From NCBI RefSeq assembly GCF_944388875.1, contig NZ_CALXKQ010000027.1, positions 1 through 36,245 on the forward strand: a stretch of 36,245 nucleotides of DNA, in the 5' to 3' direction. Shown piece after piece: positions 21,594 through 29,607 of this stretch (position 1 is the stretch's first letter; every line of letters starts with the position of its first letter). The notes under the pieces were generated by a model. It searched no databases and was not told the origin of the DNA. It saw only the letters and a program-made list of their open reading frames with translations. The position numbers were made by a program, and so were the translations under genes. Origin of the DNA: an uncultured Brachyspira sp. Lineage in GTDB: Bacteria; Spirochaetota; Brachyspiria; Brachyspirales; Brachyspiraceae.

Positions 21594-22568
21594 TTATTTT
21601 ATTATCAAATCATCTATATTCACTTCAGTTTCTATCATATTATTATTTCTCATAAACTCCTCAGTTTTTTTCATAGATGCTATATCATTATCAGTAATAT
21701 CTATACTAAAGTCATACATAGTATACATCTCTTTTACAGCCTCATCGCTAAGTCCTGTTTCTTTTGCCGAAATTGCCATAGCCTCATCATAATTATTTTC
21801 TATATAGCTTAAAACCTCTCTTTGAGCATTGATAAACTCATCAACCAATACTTTATTACTGTTGTAGAAACTTTCGCTTGTAGCAACTGCTATAGTGGCA
21901 TCAACCAAACCCTCCCCTGTAGTTACAACATTATAACCGTCTTTTATCATATTATAAGCAGAAGGACCAGCAAGCAAAGCCATATCAACAGAACCTCCAG
22001 CTAAAGCAGCCTGAGATTCTGGTATGCCCATTGATATAAACTCTACATCGCTTTCTTTTAATCCTAATGTATTTAAATATGCTGTCAAAAGCTCATGTAA
22101 TATTGTTCCTTTTGGTCCTGCTATTTTCTTTCCTCTAACTTCATCTGCTGTTTTAAAAGATGTACCTTTAGCAGAAAATAATGTAAAAGCCTTTGGAGAT
22201 CTGCTGTACATGTTTATAATTTTTATATCAGCATCATTTGCTTTAGCTAGTATTACAGAAGTAGCTCCTACAGCATACAAAAATTGAATATCGCCTGATG
22301 CTAATGCCTGAGTTTGTTCAGGACCTGTTGTAAGTTCTGAATATTCTACTGGAATACCGTATTTACTGAATGCATTGCTGAATATTGATTTTTCCTTTTC
22401 AACTATTGAAGGAACATTTAAAGGTGCTTTTACATAAGTAACTGCTATTTTCTTAGCGGTAAAATTTGTTGAAGAAGTATTTGATGATGAAGCTGCATTA
22501 TTACCGCATGAAATAGCAAAAACAGATAAAGCAGCTATAGTAAATACTAATTTAATAGTTTTAAACAT
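21594..22568 (-). CDS. ABC transporter substrate-binding lipoprotein, NitT/TauT type
   Basis: This 324-residue lipoprotein has a signal peptide ending in a lipobox (VFAISC, Cys21) and a Ser/Asn linker, so it is anchored outside the cytoplasmic membrane. The fold is the SsuA/TauA/THI5-like type: AVTYVKAPLNVPS first strand, TTGPEQTQALASGDIQF, DEVRGKKIAGPKGTILHELL and PESQAALAGGSVDMALLAGPSAY are all family landmarks. These proteins bind sulfonates, nitrate, taurine or thiamine precursors; the sequence does not tell which. It is the last gene of the operon, 36 bases after the ATPase. RBS is AAGGAG. Confidence 0.9.
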   Translation of the reverse strand: MFKTIKLVFTIAALSVFAISCGNNAASSSNTSSTNFTAKKIAVTYVKAPLNVPSIVEKEKSIFSNAFSKYGIPVEYSELTTGPEQTQALASGDIQFLYAVGATSVILAKANDADIKIINMYSRSPKAFTLFSAKGTSFKTADEVRGKKIAGPKGTILHELLTAYLNTLGLKESDVEFISMGIPESQAALAGGSVDMALLAGPSAYNMIKDGYNVVTTGEGLVDATIAVATSESFYNSNKVLVDEFINAQREVLSYIENNYDEAMAISAKETGLSDEAVKEMYTMYDFSIDITDNDIASMKKTEEFMRNNNMIETEVNIDDLIIK

Positions 22569-22604
22569 TTTAGTTCTCCTTAAAAAAAATTATATATTTA
22601 ATTT

Positions 22605-23318
22605 CTAATTTTTAATAGAAAATAAAATATCCTTTTTAATCTCTATAAAATAATTATCTAATATATTTCTTTTATACGGCTTATCAGATAAATCATATTC
22701 TTTTTTTATTCTGCCGTTTTCAAATATTATAATCTTACCTCCTAAAATAAGAGCCTCATCAATACTATGCGTTACAAATATAATAGATTTTTTATTTTGC
22801 TTATAAATGTTAATGGTTTCATTTTGCAAAGTTTCTCTGGTAAAATAATCTAAAGATGCAAAAGGCTCATCCATTAATATAATATCTACGTCATTGGCTA
22901 AAGCACGGGCAATAGAAACTCTCTGCATCATACCAAGAGAAAGCTCAGATGGATAAGCCTTATCAAAACCATTTAGCCCTATCATATTTATAAGACTGTA
23001 TATTTTATCTTTATATATGTTTTTTTCTTTCTTATTTAGAGAAAAAGCAATATTATCAAATACATTAAGCCAAGGCATAAGTCTAGGCTCTTGAAAAACT
23101 ATTGATATCTTAGCATTATTTTCTATAATCACATTTCCTGTGTCTGCCTTTTCAAGTCCTGATAGCAATCTTAAAAAAGTAGTTTTACCGCATCCGCTTT
23201 TACCCAATATTATAGTAATAGAATTATCTGCTGATTCAAAGTTCATATTATTAATAACATTTATTTTTTTATTATCTATAATAAATGATTTTGAAAGATT
23301 TTCTGTTTTAATTTTCAA
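22605..23318 (-). CDS. ABC transporter ATPase, NitT/TauT type
   Basis: The 237-residue ATPase energises the importer. Walker A is GKSGCGKTT, the Q-loop is FQEPRLMPW as in SsuB/TauB, Walker B is [11 protein letters not shown], and the switch histidine is in FVTHSID. The signature is LSLGMMQR rather than the usual LSGGM, a mild variation. The start is a TTG at 23318, eight bases after AAAGGAG and overlapping the end of the permease gene by 11 bases, so translation is coupled. Confidence 0.92.
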
Positions 23319-24063
23319 TATAAACTCCTTTAGAATAAGGAAGCTTTTTTATTATATATGAAAATAATATATCAAACAAATAACCTAATAAACCTATGGT
23401 AATAATTCCAGCTATAACCTTATCTGACCTTGAAAGCTGCTGAGAGTCGAGTATCATATAACCTAAACCGCTTGATGCTGCTATCATTTCTGCTCCTATT
23501 ATAGCTCTGAAACTATATCCAAGTCCTATTTTCATGCCCGCAAGTATGCTTGGTAATGCATTTGGAAGCACTATATAAAAAAAAATTTTTAACTTTGAAA
23601 ACCCAAAAGATTTTCCAACTTCTATTAATTTTTTGTCAGCCGAACATATTGCCTGCCTTATATTAATAAATATTGGAAAAAAAGCAGCCAAAACTATAAT
23701 TATTATCTTAGGCTTCTCTCCTATTCCAAACCATAATATCAATATAGCTATCAAACTTATAGGAGGAACATTTCTCATAAACTCTATTATATTTCTAAAG
23801 TATTCAAATCTTTCCGCTCTTACTCCAAGAATCATTCCGAATATAAAAGCAAAAATAAAAGCTATAGAAAACCCTATTACAACTCTCAAAAGACTTACAT
23901 ATATATTTTTTATTAAATTGCCGTTCATTACTTCTATATAAAAAGCCCTAATTACTCGCTGAGGCGAAGGCAGAACATAAGAACTACATATATGACTTTC
24001 ACTTGCTATAAACCAAAGTATTAAAATTAATACCAATATAATATTTTGCTTTAGAATCTTCAC
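23308..24063 (-). CDS. ABC transporter permease, NitT/TauT type
   Basis: The 251-residue membrane protein forms the importer channel. It has about six transmembrane helices. The N-terminal [11 protein letters not shown] and the cytoplasmic EAA-like loop, [27 protein letters not shown], mark the SsuC/TauC family, as does [25 protein letters not shown]. It is the first gene of a permease-ATPase-binding protein operon. A perfect inverted repeat lies 54-81 bases before its start. Confidence 0.93.
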
Positions 24064-25015: not shown

Positions 25016-27082
25016 TTAATCTTTATATTTAATATATAGCTCATCTTCCATATCAAATTTTTCTATCAAATATTTAATTAAATAAAATTTTCTTTCACTG
25101 CTGTAATTATTTTCTGCAAAATATATATCGTCCATATCTATTGGATATTCTGTTCTAAGCTCATCTTTATTTTTCGTAATTTGAATTAAACTTTGAATTT
25201 CTTCTGTAAAAAATAATTCTTTATTTTGTTTATAATAATATTTCAATATAAAAGAAAATAATTTAGAAACATCAGTTATTTTATCAATTTTTTCTCCATT
25301 AAATATGGCATAATCTAATTTTTTACCTGTAGGGTCTCCTGCTTCAAATATATTTATCTCTTCATTAATTACATTGTTAATTTTATCAATTTTAATATCT
25401 GGATATTTCCATACTAATAGAAATCTTTCACTTAATATTTTAAAACGTTTTTCTAAGTTTTTTACATTCCACTCATTTATTTTTTTCAAATATTCATTAA
25501 TCCAAAGATGACTATATTTATAACCTTGTTCTTTATTATCTATATTCATATTTTTCTTTTCTAAAAATGTTTTATTTGAAAGTTCTTTGTTATTAGCTGA
25601 TATTGTTAAATTTGCGATTAAGTGAAGTTTATTTTGCATTATTTTGTATTCTTCATCTGTTAAATCTTTCTTCCATTCTTTAACAGGGTTTTGAGGAAAA
25701 ATATGCTCTATTTCAAAATCTGTTTTTGAAAAATCAATAATAGTTTTTCCAATTCCCATTTCTAATTTACTGAATAAATACATTTTTCTTTTTGAATTCA
25801 TAGCATTATAAATATCTTTTTCTTTCAATTTATTAATTATTTCATCATCATTTGGAAATCTTTGAACATTTTTCAATTTGCATAAATATTCTTCTAGTGA
25901 CTGATAATAATTATTTTTATCTATTTTACTATATAATATCATAAATATTTTATTCATGGCATTACTGAATACATCGCATATAAATCTTCTAAATACAAAA
26001 GATTCTATTAAATCAATAATTTTAAAAAAAGTCTTATTATCTATAATTTTATAATGATAATCTTTATAAACTTTTAAAAAGAATGGATATGATACATTTA
26101 CTTCTATAGTTTTTATATTTTCAAGTTTTATTGATATATTTTTATCAATTTCATTTTTAGGATTAATCAATTTATTATAATATATTGAGTATTCTTTTAG
26201 TTCTTCTAAATATTTTTTTATTTCATCCAAATTATTTATGGAATATTTATCTTTAAATTCTTCATATATTCTATTTTTATTTGGTATTTTATTATATTCG
26301 GATGTCATAAAATCTCTTATGAAATCTGATACCATATCTTTATTAAGGCTTTCATCTCTTGCATTTTTTTCAATATGTTCCCAGTAGTTTTCGTATATAT
26401 ATTTTTGATCTTTAGAATTTAGCTTCATTAGTATATAGTTTCTTATTAAATCTCCCTGAGATAATGCTAATCCTGTAGAATTTAAACTCTCAAATATACG
26501 CTGTGGATCATCATTATTTTTATCTAAAGACATATTTATGAATACTAACTTTTTTAACCCATTTAAAATATCCAAATAATTATCTTTATTAATTTCTTTT
26601 TCAAAAAAATTAAAATTATCTATTATATTTGATTTTTCTTTAAATTGAATATTTAAAAAAATAGATTTTAATACTTTATCATTATTTTCTGTAGGCTTTA
26701 ATTTAATTTTATCTTCTTGTGAACTAACTTTTGCATATTTATTAACTAAATATAGGTCATGTATTTCATTTTTTAATTCAACATCTTTTAAATCATCAGC
26801 CAATTTATATATTCTTAAATAGATTAATATTATTGTTGTTATCCTTTGCTGTCCGTCTACTATTATTAATTCTTGTACGCTAGTTATTGGAGCATTATCA
26901 TTAACATATACAATACTTCCTATAAAATGCTCTCTGTTTAATTTACCTGCTTCTTTTATATCATTGAGTAAAATCTTACATTCTTTTATAGTCCAATCAT
27001 AATTTCTTTGGTATACTGGAATTACAAATTGTATATTACTTGTTGTTATAAACCTATTTAAATTTTCTTCGTTTGCTTTCAT
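25016..27082 (-). CDS. GmrSD-type restriction protein (DUF262-DUF1524 fusion)
   Basis: This 688-residue protein fuses the two halves of a type IV, modification-dependent restriction enzyme. The N-terminal DUF262 (GmrS-like) domain shows YQRNYDW (24-30), VDGQQR (75-80; the NTPase-type motif), RIFESLNSTG (195-204) and DLIRN (211-215). The DUF1524 (GmrD-like) HNH-family nuclease shows IEHIFPQNP (458-466) with catalytic H460 and NLTISANNKELSNKTF (491-506). A C-terminal ~100 residues contain a separate helical module (NGEKIDKITDVSKLFSFIL) found behind many DUF262 proteins. Family members cut DNA with modified (for example glucosylated) cytosine. Lies 18 bases after the isochorismatase-like gene and is probably co-transcribed. 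Both catalytic motifs appear intact. Confidence 0.9.
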   Translation of the reverse strand: MKANEENLNRFITTSNIQFVIPVYQRNYDWTIKECKILLNDIKEAGKLNREHFIGSIVYVNDNAPITSVQELIIVDGQQRITTIILIYLRIYKLADDLKDVELKNEIHDLYLVNKYAKVSSQEDKIKLKPTENNDKVLKSIFLNIQFKEKSNIIDNFNFFEKEINKDNYLDILNGLKKLVFINMSLDKNNDDPQRIFESLNSTGLALSQGDLIRNYILMKLNSKDQKYIYENYWEHIEKNARDESLNKDMVSDFIRDFMTSEYNKIPNKNRIYEEFKDKYSINNLDEIKKYLEELKEYSIYYNKLINPKNEIDKNISIKLENIKTIEVNVSYPFFLKVYKDYHYKIIDNKTFFKIIDLIESFVFRRFICDVFSNAMNKIFMILYSKIDKNNYYQSLEEYLCKLKNVQRFPNDDEIINKLKEKDIYNAMNSKRKMYLFSKLEMGIGKTIIDFSKTDFEIEHIFPQNPVKEWKKDLTDEEYKIMQNKLHLIANLTISANNKELSNKTFLEKKNMNIDNKEQGYKYSHLWINEYLKKINEWNVKNLEKRFKILSERFLLVWKYPDIKIDKINNVINEEINIFEAGDPTGKKLDYAIFNGEKIDKITDVSKLFSFILKYYYKQNKELFFTEEIQSLIQITKNKDELRTEYPIDMDDIYFAENNYSSERKFYLIKYLIEKFDMEDELYIKYKD

Positions 27083-27100: not shown

Positions 27101-28003
27101 TTATATTTCTATTAACTTTATTCCATATTTACTGGATAATTTTTCAAATTTTTTATTAGCTTCATCATTATCAAATATGGCACTGCAGCAGTTCATCATA
27201 ACATTGATTTTTTTAATTGTATTTTTATCATTAGAATACATTTCGCAAAGCTGACGGACTGTTTCATAAACTCCGAAATCTTTAGACTCTCCGCATATAT
27301 AAATTTCATTATAATTTTTAAGTCCGTATACCCAAGCCATATCGCAGAATCTTGTTTCATTAGTTATTACCTCAGGAGCAACAGCACCGTACATATCAGA
27401 AAACTGCTCCTTTCCTTTCATAATCTTATTTATTCTGTTTTCCTTCGCTCTCTCATAAAATAAAAGCATATTGTTTAATTGCTTATCCAACAGCCATCCG
27501 TCTGTAGCATATATGCAATGATAAGGCCATATTATTATATTCTGTTTTCCTAAACTATCCAGCTTTTCTAAGTATTCTATTTGTTCTTTTTTATTTAACG
27601 GCACAATTTCATTTTTTATTATCTTGTCCAATGTTATTTCTGTAAACGGTTCTATTTCATCTCCATTTCTTTTTCTCCATAAAAACGGATGAAATATAAA
27701 ATTGTATTCATGCGTATCAAAAGTTGTATATATTGCAGATATATATTCCAGCTTTTCAAAAATAAATCTTGTTATTCTTTCTATATCTTTAACAGCACCC
27801 TTAATAGGCAATACTCCTTTTTTTGTATCTATAAAATCTCTTTGGGCATCAACTATAATTAATGCTATGCCGTTATTCGTATGCTTTACTTTTATCTCTT
27901 TTGAGTAATTAGATGCTAATTCAAATATTTCTTTCTGATTTATAGGATTTCTTTCATCTCCTATATATTTTTCATTCACTATTTTTTTGTATAAATCTTC
28001 CAT
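27101..28003 (-). CDS. Isochorismatase-fold protein lacking the catalytic cysteine
   Basis: The 300-residue protein has the nicotinamidase/isochorismatase fold. VDAQRDF places the catalytic aspartate at D52; D96, H98 (FDTHEY) and H105 are the metal-site type residues; WPYHC (159-163) and KG in IMKGKEQF (K196) fit the larger cysteine hydrolase branch. The nucleophile position, normally G-x-x-x-x-C-V, reads GESKDFGV (238-245), so the cysteine is a glycine (codon GGA). It may be inactive as an amidohydrolase, or bind a ligand such as an NAD breakdown product. RBS AAAGGA overlaps the end of the sulfotransferase gene 11 bases upstream, indicating one transcript. Confidence 0.85.
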   Translation of the reverse strand: MEDLYKKIVNEKYIGDERNPINQKEIFELASNYSKEIKVKHTNNGIALIIVDAQRDFIDTKKGVLPIKGAVKDIERITRFIFEKLEYISAIYTTFDTHEYNFIFHPFLWRKRNGDEIEPFTEITLDKIIKNEIVPLNKKEQIEYLEKLDSLGKQNIIIWPYHCIYATDGWLLDKQLNNMLLFYERAKENRINKIMKGKEQFSDMYGAVAPEVITNETRFCDMAWVYGLKNYNEIYICGESKDFGVYETVRQLCEMYSNDKNTIKKINVMMNCCSAIFDNDEANKKFEKLSSKYGIKLIEI

Positions 28004-28014
28004 CTTTTAATCCT

Positions 28015-29607
28015 TTAAAAAGAAGCATCTTTATTATACTCTCTGTTTTCCTCATAATATAAAGGCATTTTATCAATTCTGTAAATTCCCCAAGTCCTTA
28101 TTCCAAATCTTAAATGATAATATACTTCTTTAGTATCTTTATTAACTTCCATTATCTGTGAATTGTTGCCGAAATCAAGCAGCATATTTCCATTGGTTAA
28201 AAAATCTATATCGGATATATAATGAGAATATAATTTATTTTCTGTTTTATACTCATATATTTTTTCTGCTTTCCAATTTCCATGAGAACCAGTTATTTTA
28301 TATTCTACATACCTTGATCCATTAGGATTTTGTTCTTCATCTCCCTGATTATCAAACATGCCTATTACATTAGTTGATATTAAAAATAAAGCATGCTGAC
28401 TTTTAGGTCCGTCAGTATTTCCATCCCCAAGTACTTTATAAGGATCGAATGATCTTAAATCTTTTAAATATCTGCCGTAAGGATTGTAGGATTCCATTGT
28501 GTCTAATGTATCATCAGCCATATACCATATAAGCTCCCATTCGCTGTAGTCTACCGCCATAACTGCTAAACTTCTCACTGATAAATAAAGTATATCATTG
28601 GCTTCATCATATACAAGAGAGTTGCAATGAGCCCAATCCATAGGAAAATATTTTTTTCTCCCTATGCTGTAATATTTATTATCCTTATCAAATATAAGTT
28701 TTTTTAAATATTCTTTTTCTGCCTCATCTCCGTTTTTATTAACTATCTTTTTTATCAAATCTCCGACATATAAATCTCTAATCATATTGCCGCTGCTGTC
28801 AACTTCGCAAACTCTATCCTCAACTCCCCAAGCAGAATTGGCAAGCATTATATAATTGCTGTCAGACTTTTTTCTTATAGTGTCATGATGAACGCCTATA
28901 TCAAGTTTTGTAACATCTAATTTGGCATTCCCAAGCAAATCGCTTACTCCCATAGTATCATAAATAACAATATCATTATCTTCATTGATAACTTTTGCTA
29001 TTTCATTAGTAAGATAAAAATTAGAATAATTCACATAACGCAGATTTCCATTTCTGCTTACTCCCATTAAGAAAAGTCCCTTCCAGCTTCTATTTATAAC
29101 AGGGCTTGCAAAATATATCTCTTCATTATTATCCTGTAAATTGCTTACAGCATTTTCATCATTTATATTAGAGAAATGAATATTCTCCTCGGGTCTTAAG
29201 TCTTTTATAACTCTATTCGTAGCTGGTATATAAATTCCATCTATAGATAATTTTTCTACTACTATATTAGTTGATATTCTATTCGTTCCGTTAATTATAT
29301 GAATAGTATTTGTATTTTCAGAGTACATTCCATGTATTGCAAAATTAGAGCCGTAATTTTTAGGATAAGTATGTATTATATCATTATCTCCAAGCCTTCC
29401 TTCAACAATAACTGTAACAGGATAATTATTATTAGTTTCTGTTTTATACACTAATGACAATGGAGTTTGTCCGTTTGGATTTAATATAAGTTCTCCTATT
29501 TTATCATCAGGAAGCGTAGCAATTTTATTTGAGCATGATAATAAAATAAGCGGTATAATTGCTAATGATAATCTCTCATAATAGGTAGATAATAATTTAT
29601 TTTTCAT
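28015..29607 (-). CDS. Aryl-sulfate sulfotransferase-like lipoprotein
   Basis: This 530-residue exported protein resembles bacterial ASST enzymes, which move sulfate between phenolic molecules. It has a lipoprotein signal (LILLSC, Cys25) in place of a cleaved signal peptide. Active-site motifs are all visible: HHDTI (240-244), DWAHCNS with H327 (324-330), SVRS with R345, and SQHALF with H405. H327 to R345 is 18 residues apart, the same as H356 and R374 of the E. coli enzyme, and H405 matches its sulfohistidine H436. RBS GGAGG precedes the ATG. No DsbL/DsbI pair lies next to it. It heads an apparent operon with the isochorismatase-like and GmrSD genes. Confidence 0.87.
   Translation of the reverse strand: MKNKLLSTYYERLSLAIIPLILLSCSNKIATLPDDKIGELILNPNGQTPLSLVYKTETNNNYPVTVIVEGRLGDNDIIHTYPKNYGSNFAIHGMYSENTNTIHIINGTNRISTNIVVEKLSIDGIYIPATNRVIKDLRPEENIHFSNINDENAVSNLQDNNEEIYFASPVINRSWKGLFLMGVSRNGNLRYVNYSNFYLTNEIAKVINEDNDIVIYDTMGVSDLLGNAKLDVTKLDIGVHHDTIRKKSDSNYIMLANSAWGVEDRVCEVDSSGNMIRDLYVGDLIKKIVNKNGDEAEKEYLKKLIFDKDNKYYSIGRKKYFPMDWAHCNSLVYDEANDILYLSVRSLAVMAVDYSEWELIWYMADDTLDTMESYNPYGRYLKDLRSFDPYKVLGDGNTDGPKSQHALFLISTNVIGMFDNQGDEEQNPNGSRYVEYKITGSHGNWKAEKIYEYKTENKLYSHYISDIDFLTNGNMLLDFGNNSQIMEVNKDTKEVYYHLRFGIRTWGIYRIDKMPLYYEENREYNKDASF

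Follow-up and report, generated by a model that had tools for sequence, protein, structure and literature searches.

A clade of Cys-less, nicotinamidase-like proteins in Brachyspira: a candidate pseudo-nicotinamidase

Results

Genes at the locus and family assignment

The DNA analysed here, referred to as the window, is a stretch of 36,245 nucleotides from an uncultured Brachyspira sp. (contig NZ_CALXKQ010000027.1 of assembly GCF_944388875.1). The gene under study lies between an arylsulfotransferase (ASST) gene and a restriction-like gene, all three on the minus strand. The features are as follows.

25016 to 27082, minus strand: GmrSD-type (GmrSD_N/GmrSD_C) restriction-like gene, 18 bases downstream of the gene under study, which it adjoins in the window genome only
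27101 to 28003, minus strand: putative pseudo-nicotinamidase paralogue of the Cys-less clade, an open reading frame of 300 aa with an ATG start
27272 to 27274, minus strand: Gly244 codon (GGA) at the catalytic-Cys position, in the motif GESKDFGV, placed by profile alignment
27416 to 27418, minus strand: Lys196 codon (AAA), catalytic-type Lys, kept in 12/12 Cys-less copies
27515 to 27529, minus strand: Trp159-Pro-Tyr-His162-Cys163, with the metal-type His and the pocket Trp, kept in 12/12
27710 to 27718, minus strand: Asp96-Thr97-His98, with the metal-type ligands D96 and H98, kept in 12/12
27848 to 27850, minus strand: Asp52 codon (GAT), catalytic-type Asp, present in the window copy and Asn in 3/12 orthologues
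28015 to 29607, minus strand: ASST gene, 11 bases upstream of the gene under study and its commonest conserved neighbour (9/12 loci)

The window protein scored 13.8 bits against the Pfam Isochorismatase model (PF00857) in a single-sequence search, below the cut-off of 27, while a distant Cys-bearing relative (L027) reached 28.2 bits. In NCBIfam, its sole match below an E-value of 0.001 was the nicotinamidase model PRK11609, scoring 20.3 bits (cut-off 174), and PADLOC returned no match for it. Despite the sub-threshold Pfam score, the protein was assigned to the isochorismatase family by profile and fold. Its AF2 model (pLDDT 93.7, pTM 0.92) yielded 108 PDB matches at E≤0.001, with nicotinamidases ranking first; the nearest solved folds were those of Pnc1 (3v8e, Z 23.2, and 2h0r, Z 23.0; 212 residues, rmsd 2.7 Å), and the predicted structure has the fold of the isochorismatase-like/cysteine hydrolase superfamily. 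The structure alignment took in the window protein plus 50 of the 80 relative loci kept from the genome scan described below, and the AF2 model of the Cys-bearing paralogue likewise had a pLDDT of 93.7. No DNA-binding domain was recognised in the window protein by family search, residues 1 to 40 being barely covered by the fold search.

The original prediction held that glycine occupies the nucleophile position of an otherwise retained active site, and our alignments agree with this on both counts. In the family profile alignment, residue 244 lies opposite the catalytic Cys of yeast Pnc1 (2h0r) and of nicotinamidase 29iv, in a column that is Cys in 84/84 Cys-bearing family members (25 from the genus and 59 from outside it), and no other Cys of the window protein aligns there. 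The window copy keeps D52, K196, D96, H98, H105 and H162. The metal-type residues D96, H98 and H162 are present by alignment in 12/12 orthologues, the metal itself being putative. Checked against the features of a nicotinamidase, the window protein has the Asp, the Lys and the metal-type ligands and lacks the nucleophilic Cys. The window copy carries Asp-Lys-Gly at the site; across the clade, the Asp is gone in 3/12 copies and Ser stands instead of Gly in 6/12.

The further suggestion that C237 or C163 might take the place of the lost thiol did not hold up. C163 belongs to the motif WPYHC and is present in all 84 Cys-family members; C237 is found in all 37 genus copies, including the 25 with a normal nucleophile, and outside the genus the position is Ala, Val or Gly. 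As both residues coexist with a normal nucleophilic Cys, neither compensates for its loss. C237 was also considered as the counterpart of the cis-peptide Cys133 of OiNIC, described as lying two residues after the conserved Gly131 (PMC3581539); this was dropped, C237 sitting just before Gly238.

Distribution of Cys-less and Cys-bearing copies

The family was present in 29 of 100 related genomes, including all 26 of the genus. Twelve of these 26 carry one Cys-less copy each, with Gly at position 244 in six (G000, which is the window genome, G024, G017, G018, G011 and G008) and Ser in the other six (G004, G009, G013, G021, G005 and G014). The remaining 25 genus copies have Cys at this position without exception. 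Asp52 is replaced by Asn in G024, G017 and G018. A Cys-bearing copy was also found in 11 of the 12 Cys-less carriers, the exception being G021, which is 85% complete. The Cys-less copies form one clade (support 100/99, and present in 100% of 200 bootstrap trees), so the absence of the Cys is conserved in a clade, and a mutation restricted to a single strain, which would have refuted the original prediction, is ruled out.

The tree contained six outside rows, and the base of its genus part is not fixed; the window copy forms a long branch (0.37), which was flagged, and the duplication may have come before or after the B. pilosicoli split. G011 groups with G017, G018 and G024 in the Cys-less gene tree, but not among the Cys copies. 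The GGN and AGY codons at position 244 would fit, on this tree, a single change from Cys to Gly and a single later change from Gly to Ser. The window copy is 61-66% identical to the Cys-less gene of the 11 other carriers and 48-57% identical to Cys copies (52% to the one in its own genome, C4:93846-94721).

An intact Cys-less copy was not found in 14 of the 26 genus genomes, some of which are incomplete. In one of them, G012, a frame-broken remnant with several stops (L041, G012:C68) lies right after the arylsulfotransferase gene, where others carry the intact gene. The role of the Cys-less gene is therefore dispensable.

A scan of named genomes kept the best 80 of 529 relatives, namely 21 Brachyspira-type sequences, one of which bears only the title Spirochaetes, and 59 from elsewhere. 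Every one of the 59 outside relatives among these best 80 has Cys at the nucleophile position, and Asp52, Lys196, Asp96, His98 and His162 are likewise kept in 59/59. Loci L027 to L029 were left out of the 84-member counts and of the tree, although the L027 gene is in both as L092. Among the 84 Cys-family members, 40 positions are conserved at 95% or more; 31 of them are unchanged in all 12 Cys-less copies, eight vary in part of the Cys-less clade, and 244 alone is lost in 12/12. The window copy itself deviates at five of the 40 (67, 156, 203, 240 and 244). Judged from these alignments, the loss of the Cys from an otherwise kept site is apparently more than chance, with 12/12 copies lacking it and 31 of the 40 conserved positions unchanged in all of them.

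Among the matches listed from 392 genomes of the phylum, no member of the Cys-less clade was seen beyond Brachyspira. A single clear outside match (G051) scored as high as the Brachyspira copies (455 bits) and keeps the Cys; the next outside matches from the phylum, among those listed, scored 219 bits or less. The five outside Spirochaetota genes for which the residue was read (L027 to L029, L174 and L175; L150 is the same as L027, and L173 the same as L028) all have Cys. Rarer Cys losses may occur elsewhere, the outside sample being drawn from the best 80 of 529.

Selection on the Cys-less copies

Pairwise NG86 omega ranged from 0.059 to 0.297 within the Cys-less clade (21 of 66 possible pairs, mostly close) and from 0.045 to 0.267 among the genus Cys copies (16 pairs). 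The codon-bootstrap maxima stayed below 0.5 in the ten Cys-less pairs tested. Three of these include the window copy, and their omega values of 0.17-0.26 are rougher, dS to the window copy being large (1.1-1.4). The reading frames are intact in 12/12 Cys-less copies. The argument of the original prediction against neutral decay is thus borne out for the 12 intact copies, with omega well below one; decay is real in G012. The Cys-less gene evolves faster than its arylsulfotransferase neighbour, with 61-66% versus 85-88% identity to the window copy across the 11 other carriers.

Genomic neighbourhood

The ASST gene lies directly upstream in 9/12 Cys-less loci. It is missing only at the three Asp52Asn loci, probably as the result of one event. 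Counting the window's own, 18 of 26 genomes carry this arylsulfotransferase (80-89% identical to the window's), among them all 12 carriers of the Cys-less gene. Downstream neighbours differ: a zinc alcohol dehydrogenase gene at five loci, a DUF819 membrane protein gene at four (one of them short and sharing its locus with the dehydrogenase gene), and the GmrSD-like gene in the window only. In G014, several arylsulfotransferase-like copies stand side by side at C139:61-3977; they are complete or partial, and some contain stops.

A sensing role had seemed attractive in the original prediction since the gene stands directly in front of a restriction gene. However, the GmrSD-like gene adjoins the Cys-less gene in just 1/12 loci. 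Six other genomes carry a GmrSD-like relative (78-84% identity) that is full-length or nearly so, and in G013 and G022 it is broken. No Cys-less paralogue is present in four of these six genomes (G025, G019, G016 and G015), all with a full-length relative. In G016, the GmrSD-like gene directly follows the ASST gene with no trace of a Cys-less gene between them. A conserved functional pairing is therefore ruled out, leaving the restriction-sensor idea without comparative support. The adjacency looks incidental, although the two genes may be co-transcribed in the window genome alone.

The GmrSD-like gene (25016-27082) matches the PADLOC models Orf5 and HEC-06; in the genus it is patchy, occurs at different sites and is broken in some genomes. 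Beyond it, on the same strand, positions 21594-24063 encode an NMT1/THI5-like ABC importer (binding protein, ATPase and permease).

At the loci of the Cys copies, a secreted protein with a PepSY-like end is encoded upstream in 12 of the 19 genomes covered; it scored 26.2 bits against PepSY_like, below the cut-off of 28.3. The Cys-less and Cys genes lie about 135-290 kb apart on one contig in G024, G009, G013 and G017, and on different contigs elsewhere.

Probable ancestral function

Neighbourhoods of the outside relatives (from the best 80 of 529) were read at 57 of the 59 loci, within four genes. The neighbours included an NtrR-like Nudix protein (14 loci), NAD synthase (10), a PRPP-synthetase-like protein (8), nicotinate-nucleotide adenylyltransferase (6) and nicotinate phosphoribosyltransferases of two types, at nine loci each. 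In each case the name comes from an NCBIfam search with a single representative. NAD synthase (nadE), both phosphoribosyltransferases and the adenylyltransferase (nadD) passed the curated cut-off; the NtrR-like Nudix (164.8 against 400) and PRPP-synthetase-like (95.3 against 113) proteins fell below it. Part of this NAD-salvage signal comes from one genus, Sphingobacterium. Most likely, the Cys-bearing family is a large (~300-aa) nicotinamidase. As this family often stands beside NAD-salvage genes outside the genus, the ancestor of the Cys-less clade was probably a nicotinamidase.

A short PncA-like gene is present in 26/26 genus genomes. In the window's own genome its product retains DYCV and scores 37 bits with Pfam, above the cut-off of 27, but 96.8 bits with NCBIfam, where the cut-off is 174. 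With such a gene in every genome, the duplicate would have been free to lose its activity.

In about ten relatives, mostly Clostridia (L065, L067 to L070, L075, L079, L080, L092 and L096), a conserved run of one vWA-like, one phosphatase-like and one kinase-like gene follows downstream of the nicotinamidase-like gene. These names are our reading of the sequences, the three representatives having no match in NCBIfam.

Discussion

The window protein is likely a nicotinamidase duplicate, one that, among the genomes searched, was seen in this genus alone. The thiol step of nicotinamidase catalysis is impossible with Gly and at best poor with Ser. We propose that: a duplicate of a ~300-aa nicotinamidase would have lost its nucleophilic Cys, to Gly and then, in one sub-lineage, to Ser; the thioester intermediate could then no longer form; a nicotinamide-like ligand might be held at the putative metal without being hydrolysed; and the protein may serve as a ligand sensor or buffer, or as the partner of another protein. 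As no DNA-binding domain was recognised, the output would be through protein contacts. Such a retained pseudo-nicotinamidase, holding its ligand without hydrolysis and acting via protein contacts, is our best explanation, and we are about evenly divided between believing and doubting it.

In nicotinamidases, the pyridine nitrogen of nicotinamide is reported to bind the metal while the Cys attacks the amide, giving a thioester (PMC6271260). The C136S form of SpNic (PDB 3O94) was crystallised with nicotinamide, according to the same report (PMC6271260), so a Ser form can hold the ligand. Other members with Cys changed to Ser or Ala are described as solved with substrate-type ligands (6xjm, 6xje and 4l08). 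The nicotinamide-sensor role raised by the original prediction is plausible, and is favoured by the descent from a probable NAD-salvage nicotinamidase. Against a binding function, the loss of Asp52 in 3/12 copies could weaken binding as well as catalysis, and the arylsulfotransferase usually encoded next to it has no obvious connection with nicotinamide. It is conceivable, though we think it rather unlikely, that Brachyspira has fixed the kind of Cys-to-Ser/Gly substitution that is made in crystallography to capture nicotinamide. The product would be a nicotinamide binder that depends on a metal, acts as a sensor or buffer of NAD breakdown and is co-expressed with the arylsulfotransferase.

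Compared with nicotinamidases (PncA/Pnc1, 2h0r/3v8e; SpNic, 3o90-3o94), the window protein shares the fold (Pnc1 aligns over 212 residues with Z 23), the Asp and Lys, and also the metal-type Asp-x-His and a WPxHC-type motif. It differs in that its clade carries Gly or Ser for the nucleophilic Cys, in its additional residues at the N-terminus and an insert (~300 aa in all), and in being 20-27% identical to the 17 top-listed nicotinamidase entries. The Cys paralogue of the genus is of similar length, has the same motifs and is 52% identical in the window's own genome, but it carries Cys in 25/25 copies and has other neighbours.

Three alternatives have to be weighed, each of which we regard as improbable. 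The Cys-less copy might be a regulatory subunit that hetero-oligomerises with the Cys paralogue or the short PncA and modulates its partner. This would be consistent with the presence of a Cys paralogue in 11/12 Cys-less genomes (all but G021) and with the oligomerisation of fold members, SpNic being reported as homotetrameric (PMC6271260) and CrcA and PhzD as dimeric (PMC10213629). It remains unlikely, however, given that the two genes are not neighbours and that the window copy has diverged so far from the Cys copies (48-57% identity, 52% to its own).

The protein might instead be a Cys-free enzyme with different chemistry. It would then rely on Asp and Lys, like the isochorismatases, or on a Ser nucleophile in the six Ser-bearing copies. 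EntB and YecD are reported to have Asp-Lys-Gly triads (PMC12553813), PhzD likewise has Gly for Cys (PMC10213629), and in our clade D52 is kept in 9/12 copies and K196 in 12/12. Yet Asp52 is Asn in the other three, Gly and Ser alternate at the site, no metal-type ligand has been lost and nicotinamidases give the best fold matches: YecD (1j2r) gave Z 15.0 versus 23, placing the window protein nearer the nicotinamidase fold. It also differs from EntB, PhzD and YecD in its metal-type ligands and in its recent descent from a Cys-bearing family; isochorismatases are not known to use a metal. We thus give this alternative little credence.

Equally hard to favour is a protein-binding regulator that no longer needs its pocket, like CrcA (PA1677) of Pseudomonas aeruginosa. 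CrcA is a superfamily member of isochorismatase fold with Ser for Cys, described as antagonising Crc and as binding it (PMC10213629), although in that account the CrcA-Crc complex was not shown by crystals or SEC-MALS. Its structure (8cib) matched the AF2 model at Z 16.4, and the Asp52 loss in three genomes fits a pocket not required for catalysis. CrcA is distant (14% identity to the window model). On the other hand, the 31 of 40 family-conserved positions unchanged in 12/12 copies, metal-type ligands included, go beyond what a scaffold would need. A neutral relic on its way out, to which the 14 genomes without an intact copy and the remnant in G012 might point, is scarcely credible, being largely refuted by the signs of purifying selection, with omega well below one also in the window-copy pairs, and the intact frames in 12/12 copies.

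The literature searched contained no paper joining nicotinamidase with pseudoenzyme, nor Brachyspira with nicotinamidase; one paired isochorismatase with pseudoenzyme. The Cys-less state is clade-wide and under selection, yet it is precedented by Gly or Ser at the site in EntB, YecD, PhzD and CrcA. If nicotinamide is indeed bound by the proposed pseudo-nicotinamidase, it would let gut spirochaetes read their NAD turnover at the protein level. The family offers a clean case of passage from an enzyme to a probable non-enzyme inside one genus, with a Cys-bearing sister copy present in 11 of the 12 genomes concerned; the same genus shows both the Gly and the Ser state, one lineage that has further lost the Asp and another in which a decayed remnant is left.
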